Part shown: in pieces, positions 4,886 to 37,925 of the stretch | Layout: every line of letters begins with the position of its first letter | How positions within the stretch are numbered: position 1 is the stretch's first letter | Origin: Arabidopsis thaliana | Taxonomy: Eukaryota; Streptophyta; Magnoliopsida; Brassicales; Brassicaceae | Direction of reading: 5' to 3' | DNA: 64,000 nucleotides | NCBI RefSeq assembly: GCF_000001735.4 | Contig: NC_003070.9 | Coordinates: 11,092,001-11,156,000, forward strand | The notes under the pieces: generated by a model | The model's database searches: none | What the model was told of the DNA's origin: nothing | The model's input: the letters and a program-made list of their open reading frames with translations, nothing else | Program-made: the position numbers and the translations under genes

Positions 4886-7800
4886 ATTTTTTTTTTTTTT
4901 TTTTTGCTAAAATGTTAATATTCATATAAATGAAAGTTCGGACTTACATATTGCAGTACCTAAAACAAATGCAATTTTGGCAAAAAAAGGTAAAAACAAG
5001 ATTACAATAATTTTGGAAAAGATTTGGGTAAATCTATCGGATCCATCGAATCATTAAATTTCGCCAACGTTTTCTTTTTTTTCGAGCAGTGATAATATTA
5101 CGAACCTCTCGGTCGATGAAGTGAAAAACAGTAGCAGGAGAGATAAAGATCGAGTTGTGAAGCACATTGTTTCTTTGTTTCCAGAGGTGGAAGACAGAAG
5201 CTTGAGCTGCAATTTTGCGAAGGAGAGAAGGAGCCTTAGACGAATTAATACGAGTCCAGGACAGTAGCTCAGCCCAAGAGTTGAAAATGGCTTGCGAAGG
5301 GGTCAATCTGAAGAAAACAAGTTTCCAGATTACAGCCGAGAAGACACAATACAGCAGTAGATGGTCTCTAGATTCAGGCCGAGAAGAACATAGACAACAG
5401 TCTGTTGTAGTTGTGACACCCCAGGCTGCAAGCCTTTGTCTTGTTGGCAATCTGTTTAGGTGAGAGACCCACATGTTGAAGGCATGTTTGGGGACTGAAC
5501 CCTTAAACCATACAGACTTGGTCCAATCCTTAACAGGTTTCTTTGGTCTCATAGCTTCCCAAGTTCTAGCAGCAGAGAAACCGTGACAAGTGAAATCATC
5601 AACAATCCAGACAAAGGTGTCCGGTGAAGAGTCAAAACAAGGCAACGCAATGGTTGTTAGGTGAATAAGCAAGGCAAGTGCCTGGTCCGTTCTAGGCGGA
5701 GAGATGAGCCAACCAACATCAGAGCAAGCGTCAGCAACCTTAGCCTGGATAGGGATACACAATGCTCTAGGGCCCGACGACCCAAACAACTTAAACAGAG
5801 GGCCAAGGGGACTCCAGTTATCGAACCAAAAGGATATTTTTTTCCCATCCCCTAATACACTAAACAAGAATCTGCCAGCAACAGTTCTTAATCTCAACAG
5901 AGATCTCCAAGTCCAGGAGTCTGTTGCAGATTCGTCGATTTCCCAAAAAGACTTGTTTCTAAAGTTGTGAAATTTGTGCCACGCAGCCCACAGAGACTCT
6001 TTTTCAGAAAAATAATAACCAGACTAATCTTAAACAGAGAGTTGTATTCAAGACCGTGAATCTCCTAAGGCCTACTCCCCCTTCCTCTTTAGGCAAACAA
6101 ACTTCGGACCATGCAACCTTTGCCCCTTTCTTCACGTCAATATTGCCAGACCAAAGGAACCGAGCACATAAAGCCTCGATTCTTTTCACGCAGCCCTTTG
6201 GCAAAATAAACGTAGAGATCCAGAAATTAATAATCCCAGAGATGACTGAAGCGATCAGTTGAACACGTCCCGCAAAAGAAAGGCATTTCACAGACCATGA
6301 TCTAAATCTCTTAGCCAGCTTCTCCAAAAGAGGGCCATACTCAGCTATCCTCAATTTCCTACACATCAAGGGCAGTCCCAAGTATCTCATAGGTAGGGTT
6401 CAAATAGGGAAATCATACCTTGCAATGGTGGAAGCCTCAATACGATCCAATCCAGCCAGGTATAAATGGGTCTTCTCTCTGTTCAATACTAAACCCGACC
6501 AAAAAGCAAAGTCCTCCAACGCCTCACTAATACCATGAAGTGAGGAGCTGCCACCATCAAAGAAAACCATAATATCATCTGCAAACATTAGGTGAGAGAT
6601 TGATAGTGGAGAAGTTTTTGGGTGGTAATGAATATAACCAGCCTGGAACCTTGAATTCAAAAGACTAGAGAACACCTCCATAGCTAAAACAAAGAGAAAA
6701 GGGGAAAGTGGATTCCCTTGCCTCAGCCCTCTGGTACTCTTGAAGAAACCACCTGTGTTCCCATTAACACAAACAGAGAAGGTGGGAGTAGAAATGCATT
6801 GCGTGATCCAGTAAACAAATCTGTCCGGAATACCAATAGCCTTTAAAGCAGAGATGATAAAATCCCATCTGATGGAGTCAAAAGCCTTTCTCAGATCCAC
6901 TTTTAACATTCCTCTAGGATCAATATTCTGCCTATTATATCCCTGCACTAACTCAGTAGCCAACAAGACATTTTCTGCTAGAAACCTCCCTGGCAGGAAA
7001 GCAGATTGAAAGGGGGATATAACCTGCGAAAGAAGACACTGAAGTCTGTTCGTAAGCAGCCTAGCAATGACCTTATACAGAGTGATAGGACCAAAGTCGT
7101 TGCAAGAAATAGGCCTAAAATCATTCATTTTTGAGGCATTCGTGATTTTAGGGATGAGGACCAAAGTCGTTGCATTCCACTGCTTCAACAAAACACTAGA
7201 CGTGAAGAACTCACTCACCGCATCCGTCACCTCAGTGCCTATAACACTCCAAGTCTCTTTAAAAAATTCAACAGGAAACCCATCCGGCCCTGAGGTCTTG
7301 TTGCTGGGAAAAGAGAAAAAAGCTGACTTAATATCCTGACGAGAGAAAGACATGGCCAACTCTTTCTTCTGATCATGAGAGCATCTGAAAGGCAGGAGCA
7401 AATCGAAATCCTCTTGAATAAGCATAGGTGGACCCACTTCTCCACCAAGAAGATTAGAAAAATATTCAATGCAATGCTCTTTAATTCCCAACTGAGTATC
7501 AATCTTAACACCGTTGTCATCTATGATGATGTGAATTGTATTAACAGCTTTTCTTGAGTCTGCCATCCTGTGGAAATAAGACGTGTTACTATCTCCCTCA
7601 CCCATCCAAGTAACCCTTGACCGCTGACAAAAGAAACTTTCTTCAGCTTTAACTAGGATGAGCCATTTCCTCTGGGCTTCCATCTCTAGAGCAGCATTCG
7701 GAATTGTCGGATCAGACAAAGTCTTGTTTTGGCGATATAAGACCAGATTGTGAGCTTCTTTAACTCTTTTCTCCAAGTTTGAAAAATTCTCCATGCTGAA

Positions 7801-8479
7801 GGTTCTAATAGGATTCTTAAGCGCCTTTAGCTTCTTAGACATTTTGAACATGGAAGAGCCCACCACATTGATCGAATACCAGAGCTCACCAACCAGAGAA
7901 ATAAAGTCAGGGTTTTGAAGCAAGAAGTTATAAAACCTGAAAGGTCTTTTTTCTCTATGCATAAGAGGGTTGATAATAACTCCACAAGAGGCATGATCCG
8001 AGAAGTCTGGTTCCCCAAAAACAGCATAGGCAGACGGGAAGCGGGAGCACCAACTCTCATTAACAAGGATTCTATCTAGCTTTTTAGCAACCGGCCTTGT
8101 AGCAGACTTGTTCCACCAAGTGAAGGTATTACCCTTAAAAACAAGGTCACATAACTCCGCTTCGAAAAGACAATCTCTGAATACCTTCATTCTTCTATTC
8201 ACATTGAGCGAAGTAGCCTGAGAATGTTCAGCAGGGCATAAAACCTGATTAAAATCACCCAACATAATCCAAGGCTTGCCATTTCCTGATAAAGACACTG
8301 ACAAAAGCAACAACTCCTCCCACAACTCTTTTCTGGTGATTGCCTCATTAGCAGCATAGACAATAGACACAACAACCGAGTCATCTGAATCCGGAAACAT
8401 CACCTCACAAGTAACCATTTGCAAAGATTTTGCAATGATTATCACTCTCACAGTCGGATGCCAAACTACCCAAAATTTG
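4886..8479 (-). mobile_element. 5'-truncated L1-type LINE retrotransposon
   Basis: A non-LTR element on the minus strand. Its 3' end is a 19-base poly(A) (poly(T) at 4887-4905 on the plus strand). Its 5' end at 8479 lies inside the endonuclease domain, a typical truncation. A 13-bp direct repeat (GTTATATCCAAGC, 4873-4885 and 8480-8492) flanks it, which defines the insertion. It sits in exon 2 of a sugar-transferase gene in the same orientation. The first open reading frame of a full LINE is missing. Confidence 0.92.
5034..8478 (-). pseudogene. LINE ORF2: endonuclease remnant, reverse transcriptase, zinc-binding C-terminus
   Basis: The protein is carried by frames at 8490-6400, 6390-6004 and 5897-5034. 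In order: the C-terminal part of an APE-type endonuclease (MLGDFNQV, LDRILVNESW, FSDHASCG); reverse transcriptase (GPDGFPVEFF, FQSAFLPGR, KAFDSIRWDF, GLRQGNPLSPFLF and the catalytic FADDIMVFF); then the plant zf-RVT region (VPKHAFNMWV..LPTRQRL..CCLC..ESRDHLLLYC). Only two lesions separate the frames. One is an in-frame TGA at about 6399-6401 between DFPI and TLPMRYLG. The other is one extra T in a T-run near 6012 that shifts WLLF to SEKESLW. So few lesions suggest fairly recent insertion. It cannot mobilise itself. Confidence 0.88.
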
Positions 8480-8492
8480 GTTATATCCAAGC
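8480..8492. repeat. LINE target-site duplication, right copy
   Basis: Exact copy of 4873-4885, directly abutting the truncated LINE 5' end. Confidence 0.93.
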
Positions 8493-9280
8493 TTAAGCAG
8501 AGAACCTAAGAACTCGGTTCGGCGCCACATCATCTTGAGGTAATCCGCCGCCATGAACTGCGTCTCGCTGGAGAAATCAACTCCGGTAGTCCTCAGAAAG
8601 AAGCAACGGCGGGGGAAAACTTCCAAGCACCTTGAGTAGGCTTTATCGTCCATACACACCACCACAACGTGGCGGAGTAGCCGCTAGGTCCCTTCGCCGA
8701 TTCGAAAGCCTTCAAGAAACACATCAAACGTGGAATTTGGTTCCGCCCAAGCCTGATTCATTATCGTCACTATCACCGTCTTCTCCTTGGTCGATGCTTC
8801 TTTTAGGATTCTTGCCAAATTTCTCCTATCTTCTGCCTCAATCTATCCACAAAACAAAACTAAAGTACTTTAATGAACATGCTCTAGTAAGAATCCTCCA
8901 TTTATATATTTTAAGACTACTTCTCTAGGACTATACTTGCCTTAATAATATAAAATTGGATACATCACTAGTTTTTTTTCAGGCAAACACATATATAATA
9001 TACTTCAACTTGATTGATATACAACATGCTTCCAATAATATGATAAATGTGTAGATCATAAAGTTAGGTTACAAACGGTATCAGTATTGTTAGAGCTTTG
9101 TTTGACTCCAATCAGCGGCGGTACAAACGCTGAAAAGCTTGAAATTTGCTGCAGCGGTAGAGGCAGTGGCTGAACAAGTGACGCCAAATAGTAAATAACT
9201 AGAGCCAGCAAAACTGTCGAAACAAATAGAAATACATTCCACTTGACCACTATCCACTTTGCTTGAAGTAGCAATGACAT

Positions 9281-26030: not shown

Positions 26031-27673
26031 ATGAGGAAAGGTAAGAGAGTGATAAAAAAGATAGAGGAGAAAATAAAGAGACAAGTGACATTCGCAAAGA
26101 GAAAGAAGAGTCTAATCAAGAAGGCATATGAACTCTCTGTTCTCTGCGATGTCCACCTTGGTCTCATCATCTTCTCTCACTCCAACAGGCTCTACGATTT
26201 CTGCTCCAACTCTACCAGGTTTATATATAAAATCATGCATATGTGTGTTCTTGTTTTGGTAAAACAAAAAGAAAAGAAAATGAATGCTCTTTAATATGGA
26301 CAGAAAAAAAGAGTTATTGAAGTTTTTTTTTCTAGTTGTAATTAATCAATACCATCATCACTTGGTTTCATCTTTTCTTTTTCGTTGGTTTACTTCTTTT
26401 TTTTTGTGAAACTTTCGTTGATTTACTTAAGAGAAATAAAATGCTGACAATCTTGCCTAGGAAATGAGATGATTAATCAAAGTGTTGCTTCATTTAGTTT
26501 TTTCTGTTCACTCGTACGCAAGTTTGAAATGCTTTTGGTCATCTTTTTTTTTTTCATATAATTTGGTATTGTATCCTTTATATGCTTTCTTGGGATATTT
26601 TATTATGTACCAGGTTTAATTCTATGGAAAGTTATGATCTATGTAGGAAAAGTTATGATCTTTTGTATTATGGATCCAAAAGAAAATTCATATTAAAGTT
26701 CATTCAGAAATAACTCATCTTGATATAAAAAATTTCTTCTGTTTTCTAGTTCCTAAGTTTATTTAATTTTTGTAACATCAGCATGGAGAATCTCATCATG
26801 AGATACCAAAAGGAAAAAGAAGGTCAAACCACTGCAGAACACAGTTTCCACTCGGTAATTATTTTTGTTATAATTCACAAATTAATATTTATCTTCACAT
26901 GTTTTAAATTTATGGATGTTATATATGAATATAATAAAAATTTGTTGAAATTTTTTTTTTTTAGGATCAGTGTTCAGATTGCGTGAAGACGAAGGAATCA
27001 ATGATGAGAGAGATAGAGAATCTTAAGCTGAATCTTCAATTGTACGACGGACATGGCTTGAATCTCTTGACCTACGACGAGCTCCTTTCTTTTGAGCTCC
27101 ATCTCGAATCTTCTCTACAACATGCTCGAGCTCGCAAGGTAAAATAATACTGTTAATATACACACTTTATATAGTCTATACATTTATTAAAGGTTCTTGT
27201 CTCTTGTTTACTAATAATGTAGTCTGAGTTCATGCATCAGCAGCAGCAGCAACAAACAGATCAAAAGCTTAAGGGAAAAGAAAAGGTGAGTTCTTGGCTT
27301 TGGTATATTTTTTCCATTAAATACATGTTAATTTTATGTAATTTTCAAAGCTTAATTTACATATAACCATTTTTTCAACTGTTTGTATTATTTTTTTCTA
27401 ATAGGAAATACTTATTGATGAATAAACTCAACATTTATGTTTCGTCTGTATATGTGACTTTTACATGTAAAATAAGTTAAATGTATAAAATAGCTAACTC
27501 ATTTTTCATTTCTACTTAATTAGGGTCAAGGAAGCTCTTGGGAGCAGCTGATGTGGCAAGCAGAGAGACAGATGATGACGTGTCAAAGACAAAAAGATCC
27601 TGCGCCGGCGAATGAAGGAGGAGTTCCTTTTTTACGGTGGGGAACAACCCACCGACGTTCTTCACCTCCTTAA
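26031..27673 (+). CDS. GOA: Bsister-type MADS-box transcription factor GORDITA (AGL63)
   Basis: Five coding exons: 26031-26218, 26782-26854, 26965-27138, 27223-27285 and 27524-27673, giving 215 aa. I chose the ATG at 26031 ([14 protein letters not shown]); an upstream TTG is not a likely start. Exon 1 encodes a divergent MADS domain ([32 protein letters not shown]). A very short I region comes next, then a K-box ([34 protein letters not shown]), a glutamine-rich stretch ([10 protein letters not shown]) and a tail ending HRRSSPP. It is recalled as the young paralogue of ABS/TT16, with a role in fruit growth. A possible alternative exon at about 27404 would add EILIDE and stop. Parts of the K-box and tail exons are duplicated in the next gene. 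Confidence 0.94.
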
Positions 27674-28096
27674 GCTACCACAACCAGGCCCAAATACAGG
27701 CCCATAACTTCTCTCTATCTATAAAAAACAACTGATAGTAAAAAGTATTGACCCGGTTTGGTTCGGTTATGTTGATACCAGACTATTAATTAACTTCGGT
27801 TAGACGTATTTACGACTTGATGCTATCTAGACCTTTTTGCCCTTCACATAAACTAATGATTACACTTTAATTGCCACTGAATCTTCCAACACAACACCAC
27901 CCAGTTAACACCACCGTTGTCGTCCACCTTAGTGGTCGGAGAAACCAAATCAGTATAAAATTCTGATGACCGGGAATGCAAACTCAACGTCTTCTTCCCT
28001 CGAGATCGGCGGCGAAATCTTTTTGAAGATCTCCTAAAGATTTACATTTCTCATTATCTCTTTTCTCCCCATTTTCAAGTTCCGATTCATGCAACA

Positions 28097-30412
28097 ATGA
28101 ACCAAATCAAAGATCCAAACCCTAATCTACCGGAACGTCTCTTCGCCGTCGATTGCTATCCCGATAAAGCCCGTCTTAATATATATTCAAGACCTGAATA
28201 TCTCGGTACAATTGCTAACCTTCTCAAAGGCTCTGAAGAATGGGAACGAATCAAAAGTTCACAATTTGGTAAGCTGTTCGAATTCCCTGTCGCTCGATGC
28301 TCACATTCAGGTAAGCTGATACATGGTTTATTATCCCGACAAGTCGTAACTAAAAAGAAACACGAGTTATGGTTTGTGTTTGGTGGACACCCAATACGTT
28401 TCTCTATAAGAGAGTTTCATATAGTGACTGGTCTTAGATGTGGTAAATTACCAACAGAAGATGAGGTAAAGAAGCATCAGGATTCTAAGTATTTGTCTGT
28501 GTGGAATAGGCTTTTCGGAGAGAAAAGAATGGTTACTATTGGAGATGTGTTGGAGATGTTACAAAAGAAGAAACTTTCCTCTTGGAAAAAGCTTTGTTTA
28601 GCTCTCATTGTAATTGTGGATGGTGTTGTTGTATGTAATGACCAAAGCTTTGTAACTCTAGATTTTGTGGAGATGTTGAATGATATAGACTTCTTTTTGG
28701 AGTATCCATGGGGGAGAAAAGCTTTTCTCGCAACTATTCGTCGTTTCGGGCCACCTAAAGATGCACCTAATCCGTTAGGGAAACTTAAGAAGCGTTTGAA
28801 ACAGAAGACGAGTGCGTGTTACGGTTTTCCTCTAGCTCTTCAGTTACAAGTTTTTGAATCCATTCCGGTGATATTGGAGAGGATAAAAGATCCAAACGAT
28901 CTTCGGGACTTCACTGAGAGGTCATCTGAGGGGTTGTCAATAGCGTTTCTGCTTCGTAAGAGTTATATTCTTGATGCTGAAGTTGATGACAAGCTTGTGG
29001 TTGCACATACATTGGAACCTAAGGGAATGATTAATGAATCTGAGTTGGTTTGGGAAACAGAGGTTTCTGATCCCAAGGTGGATTACATTTTGAGATTGAT
29101 CAACGAGGGACATTGTTTCAAACCATTTGAATGGCCACACTTGAAAGCAGCAAATCAAGAGGTCAATATTCCAGATATTGATGGTGACAGCCTTGAAGAT
29201 GTCACAGATGTTAGTCAAGCAAGGCCCAAAAAGCCTCTTACTAGGTCTTCTAAGAAGGAGAAGGAAGTTGTCAAGCCTCCTAGTATCCACAAACATACTT
29301 CTCAGGAAAAAATAAAGGCTAAAGTTCATGTTGGTGGAGAAAGTAACGACCCGGGGTATGTCACGCTTGCTTACTTGAATGACATGAAGGAGTGGATACT
29401 GAAACAGAATCAAGACCTTAGAAACAAGATTAGGGAGGATGTTAAAGAAATTGTTGTTGGTCCCAAATCACCAGCAGGAGGAGCATCTAATCTGCGTCAA
29501 TCAAACAGGCTTAACACCAACAGTAAGGGAAAGACTGATGCATCACCTCCTAAGAAAACCGGCAACACAGAAACGCGAAAACGAAAAAGAAAACAGGTAG
29601 AGGTTCACTCCTTATCATCTGGAAGCGAGTCAGCCGGTGACATTGAAGGTGAAGAGGATGTTCAGAGTACATGGAAAGAGGACGGAAATGCGCCAAGCTC
29701 GGGTACATTTGATGAATGTGATGATTATGGAGGTGCTCTAAAAATCACTCAGGAAGGTGATGTGATGCAAGAAGAAAGTGACTTTGTAAGTGTTCTTTAC
29801 ATTCTTACATCACATTCCCATATTTTATCTGATTACATTTTGTTTTTCCTCCTGTTATTGCTTATGGACTATGGTTATAACAATATCAAATTTCTTGTAG
29901 GATCACTGTTCTTCAAATTGTACAAAGATGAAAGAATCAATGATGAGAGAGATAGAGAACCTTGAACTGAAGCTTCAATTGTATGGAGGACATGGTCTGA
30001 ATAATTTAACCTACGACGAGCTTCTTCATTTTGAGCATCAACTCGAATCTTCTCTCCATATTGCTCGAGCTCATAAGGTATATAATATACACACTCTAGG
30101 ATATAATTATTTAAGCGACATATATATTAGATATTCATATACAGCATGTACTTTGGTATAAAATAGTTTTTTATAAGCACACACATATCCCAAATTTCAC
30201 AGTTTTAGTGGTTCATGTCTCTTGTTTATTAATTATGTAGTTTTGAGTTCATGCAGCAGGAGCAGCAGCAACAACAAACAGACAAGCTTAAGGAGAATCT
30301 CATGGTGTGTCAAAGGCACGAAGATGATGACATCATGCACCGGCAAGTGAAGAAGGAGAACCCACCGGCGTTCTTCAGCTCCTCCCGCCGCCACAACCAG
30401 CCCCAAGACTAG
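28097..30412 (+). CDS. Chimeric DUF1985 / MADS K-box protein
   Basis: Three exons: 28097-29785, 29901-30077 and about 30257-30412 (a second AG allows 30260), giving about 670 aa. Exon 1 (563 aa) carries a DUF1985 domain at about residues 45-205 (KLFEFPVARCSHSGKLIHG, FVFGGHPIRFSIREFHIVTG). A basic, low-complexity region with KRKRKQ-type nuclear signals follows. DUF1985 is common in plant transposon-linked and Ulp1-like genes. Exon 2 is a near copy of GORDITA exon 3 ([35 protein letters not shown]), roughly three-quarters identical by eye. Exon 3 is a copy of the GORDITA tail, with EQQQQQTDKLKE and ending HNQPQD. No MADS domain is present, so DNA binding is not expected. If expressed, it could dimerise through the K-box; that is inference. 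Matches my memory of At1g31150. Confidence 0.82.
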
Positions 30413-30500
30413 GACAACAACTTCTCCCTATCTAATAACAACTTAAGCAGATCGACCCGGTTTGGTTCAGCTTACCAGACGGTTAATTTATTACCGGTTA
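29880..30500 (+). repeat. Partial duplicate of GORDITA exons 3-5 and 3' flank
   Basis: Similarity to 26940-27770 covers the K-box exon, the following intron start, the glutamine-rich exon, the terminal exon and 3' flanking words such as ACCCGGTTTGGTTC. The copy lacks the last GORDITA intron. The left break lies in intron 2. Confidence 0.85.
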
Positions 30501-30879
30501 TTTTCTTTGCTGACTTTCTAATGAACATGTTGACCATGCTATGATAGCTTTCTGGTTTATATTAAAAGGTTTTCTTTAGCAGAAATTAACCAAACCTGTG
30601 TTCTGTTGTGTTCTCCTAACTCTCATTAATATGTACAGATCCATATACGATAATTGTAGGAGAGAAACTACTCATATCATATAAATTGTTAGTATTTATT
30701 TCTAACAATGAAAAAAGAAAAAGAATTCGATAACAATTGGAAATGGAAGCTATCTAATCTCTAGGAATTCACAACTGGATAAAATCCGATAGTGGTAAAA
30801 ACTCATAAACCATATAAGAAAGGATTGTAGTTGACAATTTTGGAGCACGTTGGCTTTGGGTTGACATGAATCTTTCTTC
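30413..30879. other. Short convergent intergenic region
   Basis: Lies between the 3' ends of the chimeric gene and HINT2. The first ~100 bases repeat GORDITA 3' flank. The rest holds 3' untranslated sequence, with nothing else seen. Confidence 0.5.
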
Positions 30880-32106
<1,227 letters not shown>

Positions 32107-37329: not shown

Positions 37330-37925
37330 ATGCTGCTTGTTTCTTCACAGACGGCGCAAGACTTGCAGAGGTCACGAGATGTATGCGGGCGTTGTTGTGG
37401 TTTCGGCTTCTTGGTAACGATATTCCGGCTTTGTTGTAAAGGGCTTGACTTGATTTGCATTGCAATGTTAACACTGATATCCTCTACATAGTCTAAAAAG
37501 GTGCAAATACGATTACCTCTAAAACCTTGGATTTCAACACTTTGAAGAGTTTTACTTTCCAGTACAACGAGTTATATGTATATCCCATCGACAAAACAAT
37601 GTTACCGATAGCGGAAAGATCGTGGCCAAATTTTCTCTCAGAATACAAAGAGTAGACATCTTTCGACCATTCCTGCTTATCGACATCCTCTAGAACCCGC
37701 ATAATCAACTTAAGGGGAAATCCAACATCACGAGCATACTCCACATAAATCTCACATAATTTTCCCTTATAGTTTATCAACTGATAATGGCAGTTTTCTG
37801 CACCTTCGAACTTGAATTTCTCGGACTAACAATAAAGCAAACTATCACACAAGACCTTCTTCCATCAGAATCAGAATGTTGCGCTGAGTAATACAAAAAC
37901 CCCTATGAATTAGTTTCTTCTTAGA
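37330..37925 (-). pseudogene. F-box-associated domain pseudogene
   Basis: The best piece (37780-37493) reads INYKGKLCEIYVEY, FPLKLIMRVLEDVDKQEWS and SLYSERKFGHDLSAIGNIVLSMGYTY. These match the F-box-associated region of the genes at the left of the window. Upstream, a different frame gives SDGRRSCVIVCF and SEKFKFEGAENCHYQ. Downstream, another frame gives DYVEDISVLTLQ. At least two frameshifts separate these, and the F-box itself was not found. It abuts the fold-back element. Confidence 0.75.

Follow-up and report, generated by a model that had tools for sequence, protein, structure and literature searches.

GORDITA (AGL63), a Bsister MIKC-type MADS gene, is a regulator of the seed coat whose reported partner, as cited in PMC8156179, is AGL16. 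In ABS (TT16, AT5G23260), an alternative splice acceptor gives rise to isoforms that differ by five amino acids, and the short isoform retains the same dimer specificity with a change in its higher-order complexes. MADS inhibitors of the microProtein type are small, single-domain proteins that contain a dimerization domain only. With respect to transposon-linked genes, the VANC proteins of VANDAL elements are anti-silencing factors characterized by sequence-specific binding to DNA and by a loss of DNA methylation, and they carry both DUF1985 and DUF287. DUF1985 is treated in sections of PMC11963502 and PMC5735166, the latter of which describes the binding of DNA motifs by VANC21. The Kaonashi ULP-like proteases (KIU) are defined, in the relevant sections of the reviews, as Ulp1-domain genes of non-TIR MULEs.

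Described here is an Arabidopsis locus that combines parts of these systems in one predicted protein. The window analyzed was a stretch of 64,000 nt, and all coordinates are positions in that whole stretch, with position 1 being its first letter. The gene is a neighbor of GORDITA (26031-27673) and, to judge from its coordinates, we take it to be AT1G31150. Its Araport11 description is presumably "K-box region protein (DUF1985)", which would mean that the annotation already has the fusion. The initial annotation had presented the gene as new, a claim that is not supported given that the locus presumably bears this name already and that its RNA was reported in 2011, as discussed below.

The fusion gene and its predicted protein

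Splicing of 28097-29785, 29901-30077, and 30257-30412 on the forward strand, across GT-AG introns, yields an in-frame coding sequence of 2022 nt, namely 673 amino acids and a stop codon. A Pfam analysis of this protein places DUF1985 at residues 79-215 (28331-28741; E 3e-47) and a K-box, PF01486, at residues 574-639 (E 8.5e-8; 32.7 bits versus a cut-off of 30). Neither a MADS (SRF-TF) domain nor DUF287 was among the matches at E values up to 10, and Peptidase C48 was likewise absent by Pfam. The initial annotation had proposed a chimeric structure in which a 563-residue DUF1985 exon is spliced in phase to K-box exons and the MADS domain and I region are absent. The model agrees with this in every respect, both the MADS and the I exons being missing. 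The span that had been assigned, 26965-30412, is correct at its end only; position 26965 belongs to GORDITA's own exon 3, and the coding sequence of the fusion starts at 28097.

A candidate promoter for the gene itself, the TATA-box-like motif TATAAAA at 27954-27960 (forward strand), lies 137 nt 5' of the ATG and is a consensus match only from a pattern scan of 27674-28097. A further match in that scan, again by consensus only, is found at 27720, 47 nt 3' of the GORDITA stop codon.

Exon 1 (28097-29785), delineated by the splice model, Pfam, and homology, encodes the DUF1985 module and a linker extending from approximately residue 299 to residue 563 (28991-29785). A basic RKRKRK stretch at residue 494 of the linker is NLS-like and would suggest a nuclear role for this region. 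Head and tail meet in intron 1 (29786-29900), a phase 0 intron of 71% A+T. One could envision the locus as being divided at this point into a DUF1985 gene that stops within intron 1 and, as a unit apart from it, a GORDITA pseudogene fragment that is not transcribed. Indeed, the reading frame is open through the intron and would end at 29965 to give an ORF of 622 residues. The intron, however, is just 115 nt in length with a GTAAGT donor, an AG acceptor, and matched phase, and the term "transcription factor gene" applied to AT1G31150 in the pertinent section of PMC3176755 would better fit a model that includes the K-box than one with DUF1985 alone. We consider two separate units to be improbable.

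The DUF1985 head and its relatives

The three nearest relatives of the head are DUF1985-Ulp1 genes, L026 (C5:7.03 Mb) and L027 and L028 (both C3), all of which contain Peptidase_C48. On the basis of that domain and the reviews, we file them as Kaonashi-type, with the note that the DUF1985 head is a trait of these relatives and lies outside the KIU definition as given in the review sections. The proposal that the head came from a transposon-linked family is supported by this kinship. The DUF1985 module of the fusion is 62% identical to that of L026 and 60% identical to that of L027, and exon 1 matches L027 across residues 7-553 in a tblastn search. Exon 1 corresponds to exons 1 and 2 of L026 and L027, and by alignment it ends near their predicted exon-2 donors, which are of the same phase, 0. 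The linker is homologous to exon 2 of these genes (E 5.6e-14 for L026), with its last residues aligning weakly; it has diverged strongly from L026, with a dN of 0.74 versus 0.31 for the DUF part and a saturated dS. The fusion differs from its relatives in that a GORDITA-derived K-box occupies the place of the protease and the intron near residue 297 is missing. When the 64-kb window was probed with two C48 queries, tblastn detected no protease sequence or remnant at E values up to 1. A search of 27600-30900 for long inverted repeats, such as might mark the termini of an element, revealed none, the longest pairs being 22-24 nt and 71-77% complementary (71% for the 24-nt pair), figures that carry no chance estimate; non-TIR elements lack such repeats.

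The DUF1985 exon also aligns with VANC21 (PDB 9lnj/9lnk) over residues 74-264 with an E value of 1.9e-10, and a DUF1985 profile matches VANC21 at E 7e-25. The AlphaFold model of this part, with a pLDDT of 41, is not usable. From the homology, the module is likely VANC-like and DNA- or chromatin-binding. Such a module raises the question of whether the protein is a domesticated VANC-like factor that counters silencing at transposons in the precursor of the female germline, self-oligomerization being the sole task of the K-box. The homology to VANC21 and the RNA in the megaspore mother cell (part of PMC3176755) would be in keeping with such a role. The fusion shares DUF1985 with VANC21 and VANC6, but it has no match to DUF287, a feature of VANC proteins, and the latter are not its nearest relatives. 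For the DUF1985 of the three protease genes that are its nearest relatives, we found no report of DNA binding. A role of this type thus seems unlikely.

The K-box tail

Exon 2 (29901-30077) is a copy of GORDITA exon 3 (26965-27138), and its K-box scores 32.2 bits, as compared to 28.5 bits for GORDITA's own exon (cut-off 30). Exon 3 (30257-30412), which carries the stop codon, consists of the joined remains of GORDITA exons 4 (27223-27285) and 5 (27524-27673, including the GORDITA stop). The suggestion that exons 3-5 had been copied stands, with the refinement that the last copied exon is a merger. The 109-residue tail, when searched against the genome, gave five matches. Two were the exons that encode it, and the best of the others was GORDITA exon 3 (74% amino acid identity, E 2.2e-18), in support of the proposed GORDITA origin; the ABS exon and one more match followed at E values of 0.22 and 5, respectively. 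No PDB chain was matched by the tail alone in a sequence search at E values up to 1.

At the DNA level, GORDITA 26955-27149, 27192-27274, and 27646-27791 correspond to 29891-30087, 30210-30293, and 30359-30488 in the copy with identities of 80%, 84%, and 73%, respectively. The last pair takes in a common 3' flank, duplicated at 30413-30488, about where the homology stops. The second and third matches are separated by 371 nt in GORDITA (intron and flanking coding sequence) but by 65 nt in the copy. The trimming of exons 4 and 5 in the copy has left the K-box region shorter at its C-terminal end, and the C-terminal frame differs from that of GORDITA.

Intron 2 (30078-30256) contains the ancestral Bsister acceptor, recognized by homology, which ends at 30240. 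An exon starting at 30241 would encode one codon before a stop, this acceptor having been put out of frame by a one-base length change. The frame is retained from exon starts at 30257 or 30260. The downstream acceptor sits at a GCAG site homologous to the acceptor of the ABS short K-box isoform. The ABS acceptors, at a distance of 15 nt from each other, are both in frame, whereas those of the fusion are 16 nt apart and the downstream one alone is in frame. On the basis of this homology, altered or weak tetramer formation would be expected.

The K-box exons of the copy and GORDITA differ with a dS of 0.58 (95% interval 0.28-1.19). The alignable, mostly non-coding pieces have diverged less, by 0.10-0.20, a value biased low by free gaps. 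A plainly recent duplication was rejected in light of the dS, with its wide interval and the lower values of these pieces kept in mind; for the latter two reasons no firm age is given. The dN/dS for the K-box exon is 0.26 (95% interval 0.11-0.56), values of 0.5 or more having arisen in 4.4% of 5000 bootstraps, and thus the exon has probably been constrained on both branches. With ABS as the outgroup, 2 derived residues are found in the copy versus 2 in GORDITA (9 sites unresolved), and 11 derived bases versus 8; the residue counts reveal no excess conservation of the copy over GORDITA. There are no stops in the 110 codons of the tail, an outcome also obtained, before frameshifts are considered, in 15% of neutral runs at a branch length of 0.15 and in 4% at 0.29.

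These values bear on whether the tail matters to the protein. The fusion transcript could be real and its K-box a passenger, with any function residing in the DUF1985 exon (or none at all) and the GORDITA-derived exons providing just a stop and a polyadenylation signal once the protease exons had been lost. The trimming of exons 4 and 5 by deletion, the survival of the frame solely through the downstream acceptor, and a conservation no higher than that of GORDITA would all accord with this, as would the non-coding divergence, by which the copy is possibly young and its frame preserved by chance. Against it are the dN/dS, whose upper bound lies just above 0.5, and a K-box score above both the Pfam cut-off and that of GORDITA. 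A passenger tail is accordingly regarded as possible but rather unlikely.

Genome-wide, 34 K-box exons were found, and that of the fusion is the sole one without a MADS exon of its own upstream. The nearest MADS exon in the 5' direction is that of GORDITA, with GORDITA's own K-box in between. The protein therefore shares the K-box with MIKC-type MADS-domain proteins and departs from them in having no N-terminal MADS domain. With 673 residues and a second domain, it falls outside the definition of a microProtein, although it may still work in a microProtein-like manner. The maize Bs1 gene, as portrayed in part of the review PMC13317346, is similarly a chimera with host domains that arose by transposon-linked exon shuffling, but Bs1 is a retrotransposon of the LTR type carrying transduced host fragments, whereas the fusion unites a gene of a MULE-linked family with the exons of a neighbor.

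Similarity between GORDITA and the copy ends ~10 nt 5' of exon 3. When the last 10-14 nt were removed from the fusion intron, its local alignment with the GORDITA intron was equaled by 251 of 500 shuffles and hence not significant, and the global alignment was weakly significant (7 of 500); for the whole introns the counts were 66 (local) and 12 (global) of 500. The idea that a DUF1985 gene landed in intron 2 of a GORDITA duplicate finds no support in this, given the lack of significant local similarity 5' of the acceptor. The position of the fusion donor near the predicted donor of the DUF1985-protease relatives fits equally well with GORDITA exons entering an intron of a resident gene.

Expression and reported interactions

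According to the relevant part of PMC3176755, AT1G31150 RNA was shown by in situ hybridization in the megaspore mother cell, with a probe that could lie wholly in DUF1985. AT1G31150 is also listed in portions of PMC3546934 as a cDNA-library prey whose clone was sequenced, with AGP6 as its one printed interactor, a pair outside the interactions that were retested. AGP6 is a cell-surface protein with no known link to the MADS proteins. A table therein gives a predicted secretory signal and a membrane helix for AT1G31150, which are a poor fit to a nuclear protein. The passages of these two papers that name AT1G31150 describe no domain fusion, which may still be published elsewhere.

Proposed origin and action

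On balance, we lean toward AT1G31150 being a real host gene formed by exon shuffling, in which the K-box tail would allow a DUF1985 protein to associate with MIKC MADS proteins or with copies of itself. A DUF1985-Ulp1 gene of the Kaonashi type would have lost its Peptidase C48 exons, although the order of events is inferred. From the anatomy of the DNA, its donor is now predicted to be joined, with phase 0 on either side, to the exons for the K-box and C-terminus in a partial duplicate of GORDITA. The protein would probably be nuclear, with a VANC-like DUF1985 module followed by a K-box coiled coil, and pairing through the latter might take place in reproductive tissue. The DUF1985 protein could thereby be tethered to MADS-occupied chromatin or, as a MADS mimic without the DNA-binding domain, could act as a decoy that titrates partners. 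That it competes with GORDITA is a guess.

To the known locus the sequence analysis would add a protease-less head of the Kaonashi type, homology to VANC21, an acceptor like that of the ABS short isoform, and a K-box without MADS. Chimeric genes with transposon-linked parts are of a known kind; among the K-box exons found, this one is unique in having no MADS of its own. It is conceivable, if doubtful, that a VANC-like, transposon-linked chromatin protein took up a MADS pairing domain, such that MADS complexes recruit it or are sequestered by it in the female germline precursor. The fusion can be tested by ordinary Arabidopsis tools, and it links two fields, the regulation of ovule and seed coat by Bsister genes and the anti-silencing of transposons.

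Structure of the fusion gene

In the window, C1:11092001-11156000 of what we take as Arabidopsis thaliana Col-0, the chimeric gene that extends along the forward strand from position 28097 to 30412, and which we take to be AT1G31150, lies downstream of the Bsister MADS gene GORDITA (26031-27673), presumably AT1G31140. Its coding sequence (28097-29785, 29901-30077, and 30257-30412) comprises 2022 nucleotides in a single frame and specifies a protein of 673 residues. The introns are both of the GT-AG type, with lengths of 115 and 179 nucleotides and A+T contents of 71% and 73%, respectively. A TATAAAA motif is positioned at 27954, 5' of the initiating ATG. According to Pfam, the DUF1985 domain is delineated by residues 79 to 215 (E = 3e-47) and the K-box by residues 574 to 639 (E = 8.5e-8), with no match to a MADS domain in the 673-residue protein. 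The chimeric gene noticed in the initial annotation is borne out and exceeds chance, and the architecture proposed there, namely a DUF1985 head and a GORDITA-derived tail without a MADS domain, stands.

Origin of the DUF1985 head

A search with the 563-residue first exon against the whole genome (119.7 Mb, seven contigs) yielded 77 matches including itself (77 scored of 283 candidates). The top non-self matches among those scored, at C3:14766896 (60%, one internal stop) and C5:7027934 (62%), both stop near residue 298 of the exon. Regions of 9.9 kb were compared for L026 (C5:7.03 Mb), L027, and L028 (both on C3), the three top matches outside the locus itself, and for two more distant ones, L030 and L031. 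A Peptidase_C48 (Ulp1 protease) domain is located 3' of DUF1985 in L026, L027, and L028 by Pfam. By tblastn, the C48 queries of L026 and L027 detected the domain also in L030, and found it neither in L031 nor, at E values up to 1, in the 64-kb window. The fusion exon aligns by tblastn with L027 over residues 7 to 553 and with L026 over residues 9 to 507. In an alignment to the joined exons 1 and 2 of these relatives, its donor is no more than about 10 residues away from the donors predicted for their exon 2, and every one of these donors is in phase 0, although those of L026 and L027 are our own choices made without annotation and the final aligned residues are weak. An intron near residue 297 in L026 and L027 is absent in the fusion. 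We accordingly interpret the head as a DUF1985-Ulp1 gene minus its protease. Ulp1 genes carried by MULEs have been named Kaonashi (parts of PMC6117577 and PMC13317346). Relative to L026, dN is 0.31 in the DUF part and 0.74 in the linker; dS is saturated, and thus dN/dS is not given.

The segment at 28331-28741 has the highest Pfam DUF1985 score, 165.5 bits, among 150 scored places (of 297 candidates) in the genome. L026 itself (5390-8788) contains a DUF1985-Ulp1 gene with long open exons and no stop within its DUF1985 or C48 exon, and is possibly another intact host gene of the family. Elsewhere in the window, an F-box-associated domain fragment (FBA_3, E = 1.7e-6) occupies 37496-37780 on the reverse strand.

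VANC21 (PDB 9lnj, 9lnk) was matched at E = 7e-25 by a profile of ten DUF1985 sequences and at E = 1.9e-10 by the window exon alone. As described in part of PMC5735166, VANC21 binds specific DNA motifs and causes VANDAL elements to lose DNA methylation, and VANC proteins contain both DUF1985 and DUF287. The fusion shares the former domain, but its protein has no Pfam match to DUF287. From the homology to VANC21, we infer that the DUF1985 domain of the fusion may bind DNA.

Origin of the K-box tail

The DNA similarity between GORDITA and the copy begins ∼10 nucleotides 5' of exon 3 and ends ∼118 nucleotides 3' of the GORDITA stop. Similarity 3' of 27791/30488 is not above that of shuffled sequences (348 of 500 as good). 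On the 5' side of the acceptor, no local similarity above shuffles was observed (251 of 500 as good), and the signal is weak in the global comparison (7 of 500); for the whole introns, 66 (local) and 12 (global) of 500 shuffles were as good. The last exon of the copy consists of the joined remnants of GORDITA exons 4 and 5, the gap between the matches being 371 nucleotides in GORDITA versus 65 in the copy. With a length difference of 22 nucleotides, the C-termini of GORDITA (27624-27673) and the copy (30359-30412) are in different reading frames.

Genome-wide, 34 K-box exons were identified at E values up to 0.01 (all 50 candidates scored), along with 125 SRF-TF places (all 134 scored), although such an exon-by-exon search is liable to overlook weak K-boxes. 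When 39 of the 125 MADS matches were entered and paired by strand and a distance of 6 kb upstream, 33 of the 34 K-box exons had their own MADS exon. The sole exception is that of the fusion, so counted because the GORDITA K-box separates it from the MADS exon closest to it. The copy exon scores 32.2 bits, above the Pfam cut-off, whereas the GORDITA exon (26965-27138) falls below it at 28.5 bits, in agreement with the degeneration of GORDITA-like genes in crucifers reported in part of PMC7616505.

Across 58 codons of the K-box exon, GORDITA and the copy differ with a dS of 0.58 (95% 0.28-1.19) and a dN of 0.149. The resulting dN/dS of 0.26 (95% 0.11-0.56) reached at least 0.5 in 4.4% of 5000 bootstraps and, being below that value, suggests constraint on both exons. 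When the tail of the copy (110 codons) was evolved neutrally in 4000 simulated runs, 15% remained without stops at a branch length of 0.15 and 4% at 0.29; with frameshifts also counted (assumed 0.1 per substitution), 0.45% and none, respectively, were intact. Weighing against constraint on the tail, the alignable, mostly non-coding pieces are closer than the K-box dS (JC 0.10-0.20), and polarization with ABS provides no advantage for the copy (two derived residues in each K-box; 11 derived bases in the copy versus eight in GORDITA).

The K-box exon at C5:7837587 is presumably that of AT5G23260 (ABS/TT16). In ABS, a second AG lies 15 nucleotides 3' of the exon-4 acceptor. An alternative ABS acceptor changes the K-box by five amino acids, leaving dimer specificity the same while higher-order complexes differ (part of PMC3266260); on the basis of the 15-nucleotide spacing, this event would be located at the second AG. 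The corresponding stretch in the fusion is 16 nucleotides, and thus its upstream acceptor leads out of frame to a stop after one codon, the frame being kept only from 30257 or the tandem 30260.

Expression and reported interactions

The assumed gene assignments fit the parts of two papers in which AT1G31150 is labeled a "transcription factor gene" (PMC3176755) and AT5G23260 is ABS/TT16 (PMC3266260). By in situ hybridization with cDNA-cloned probes, AT1G31150 RNA was detected in the megaspore mother cell (part of PMC3176755). If our assignment of the locus is correct, the gene was therefore not new, contrary to the initial claim. A cDNA library also yielded 22 candidate preys of AGP6, of which AT1G31150 is one, outside the four AGP6 interactors that were retested; in agp6 agp11 pollen tubes, its fold change has a lower bound of 2.5 (PMC3546934). 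The secretory signal and membrane helix predicted for it in the same study are at odds with a nuclear protein. The DUF1985/K-box junction is shown neither there nor in the accessible part of PMC3176755. For GORDITA, AGL16 is the sole reported partner, as cited in part of PMC8156179.

The fusion is best read as a DUF1985/K-box gene that arose by exon shuffling and whose RNA is present in reproductive tissue; the tail probably still functions as a coiled coil.
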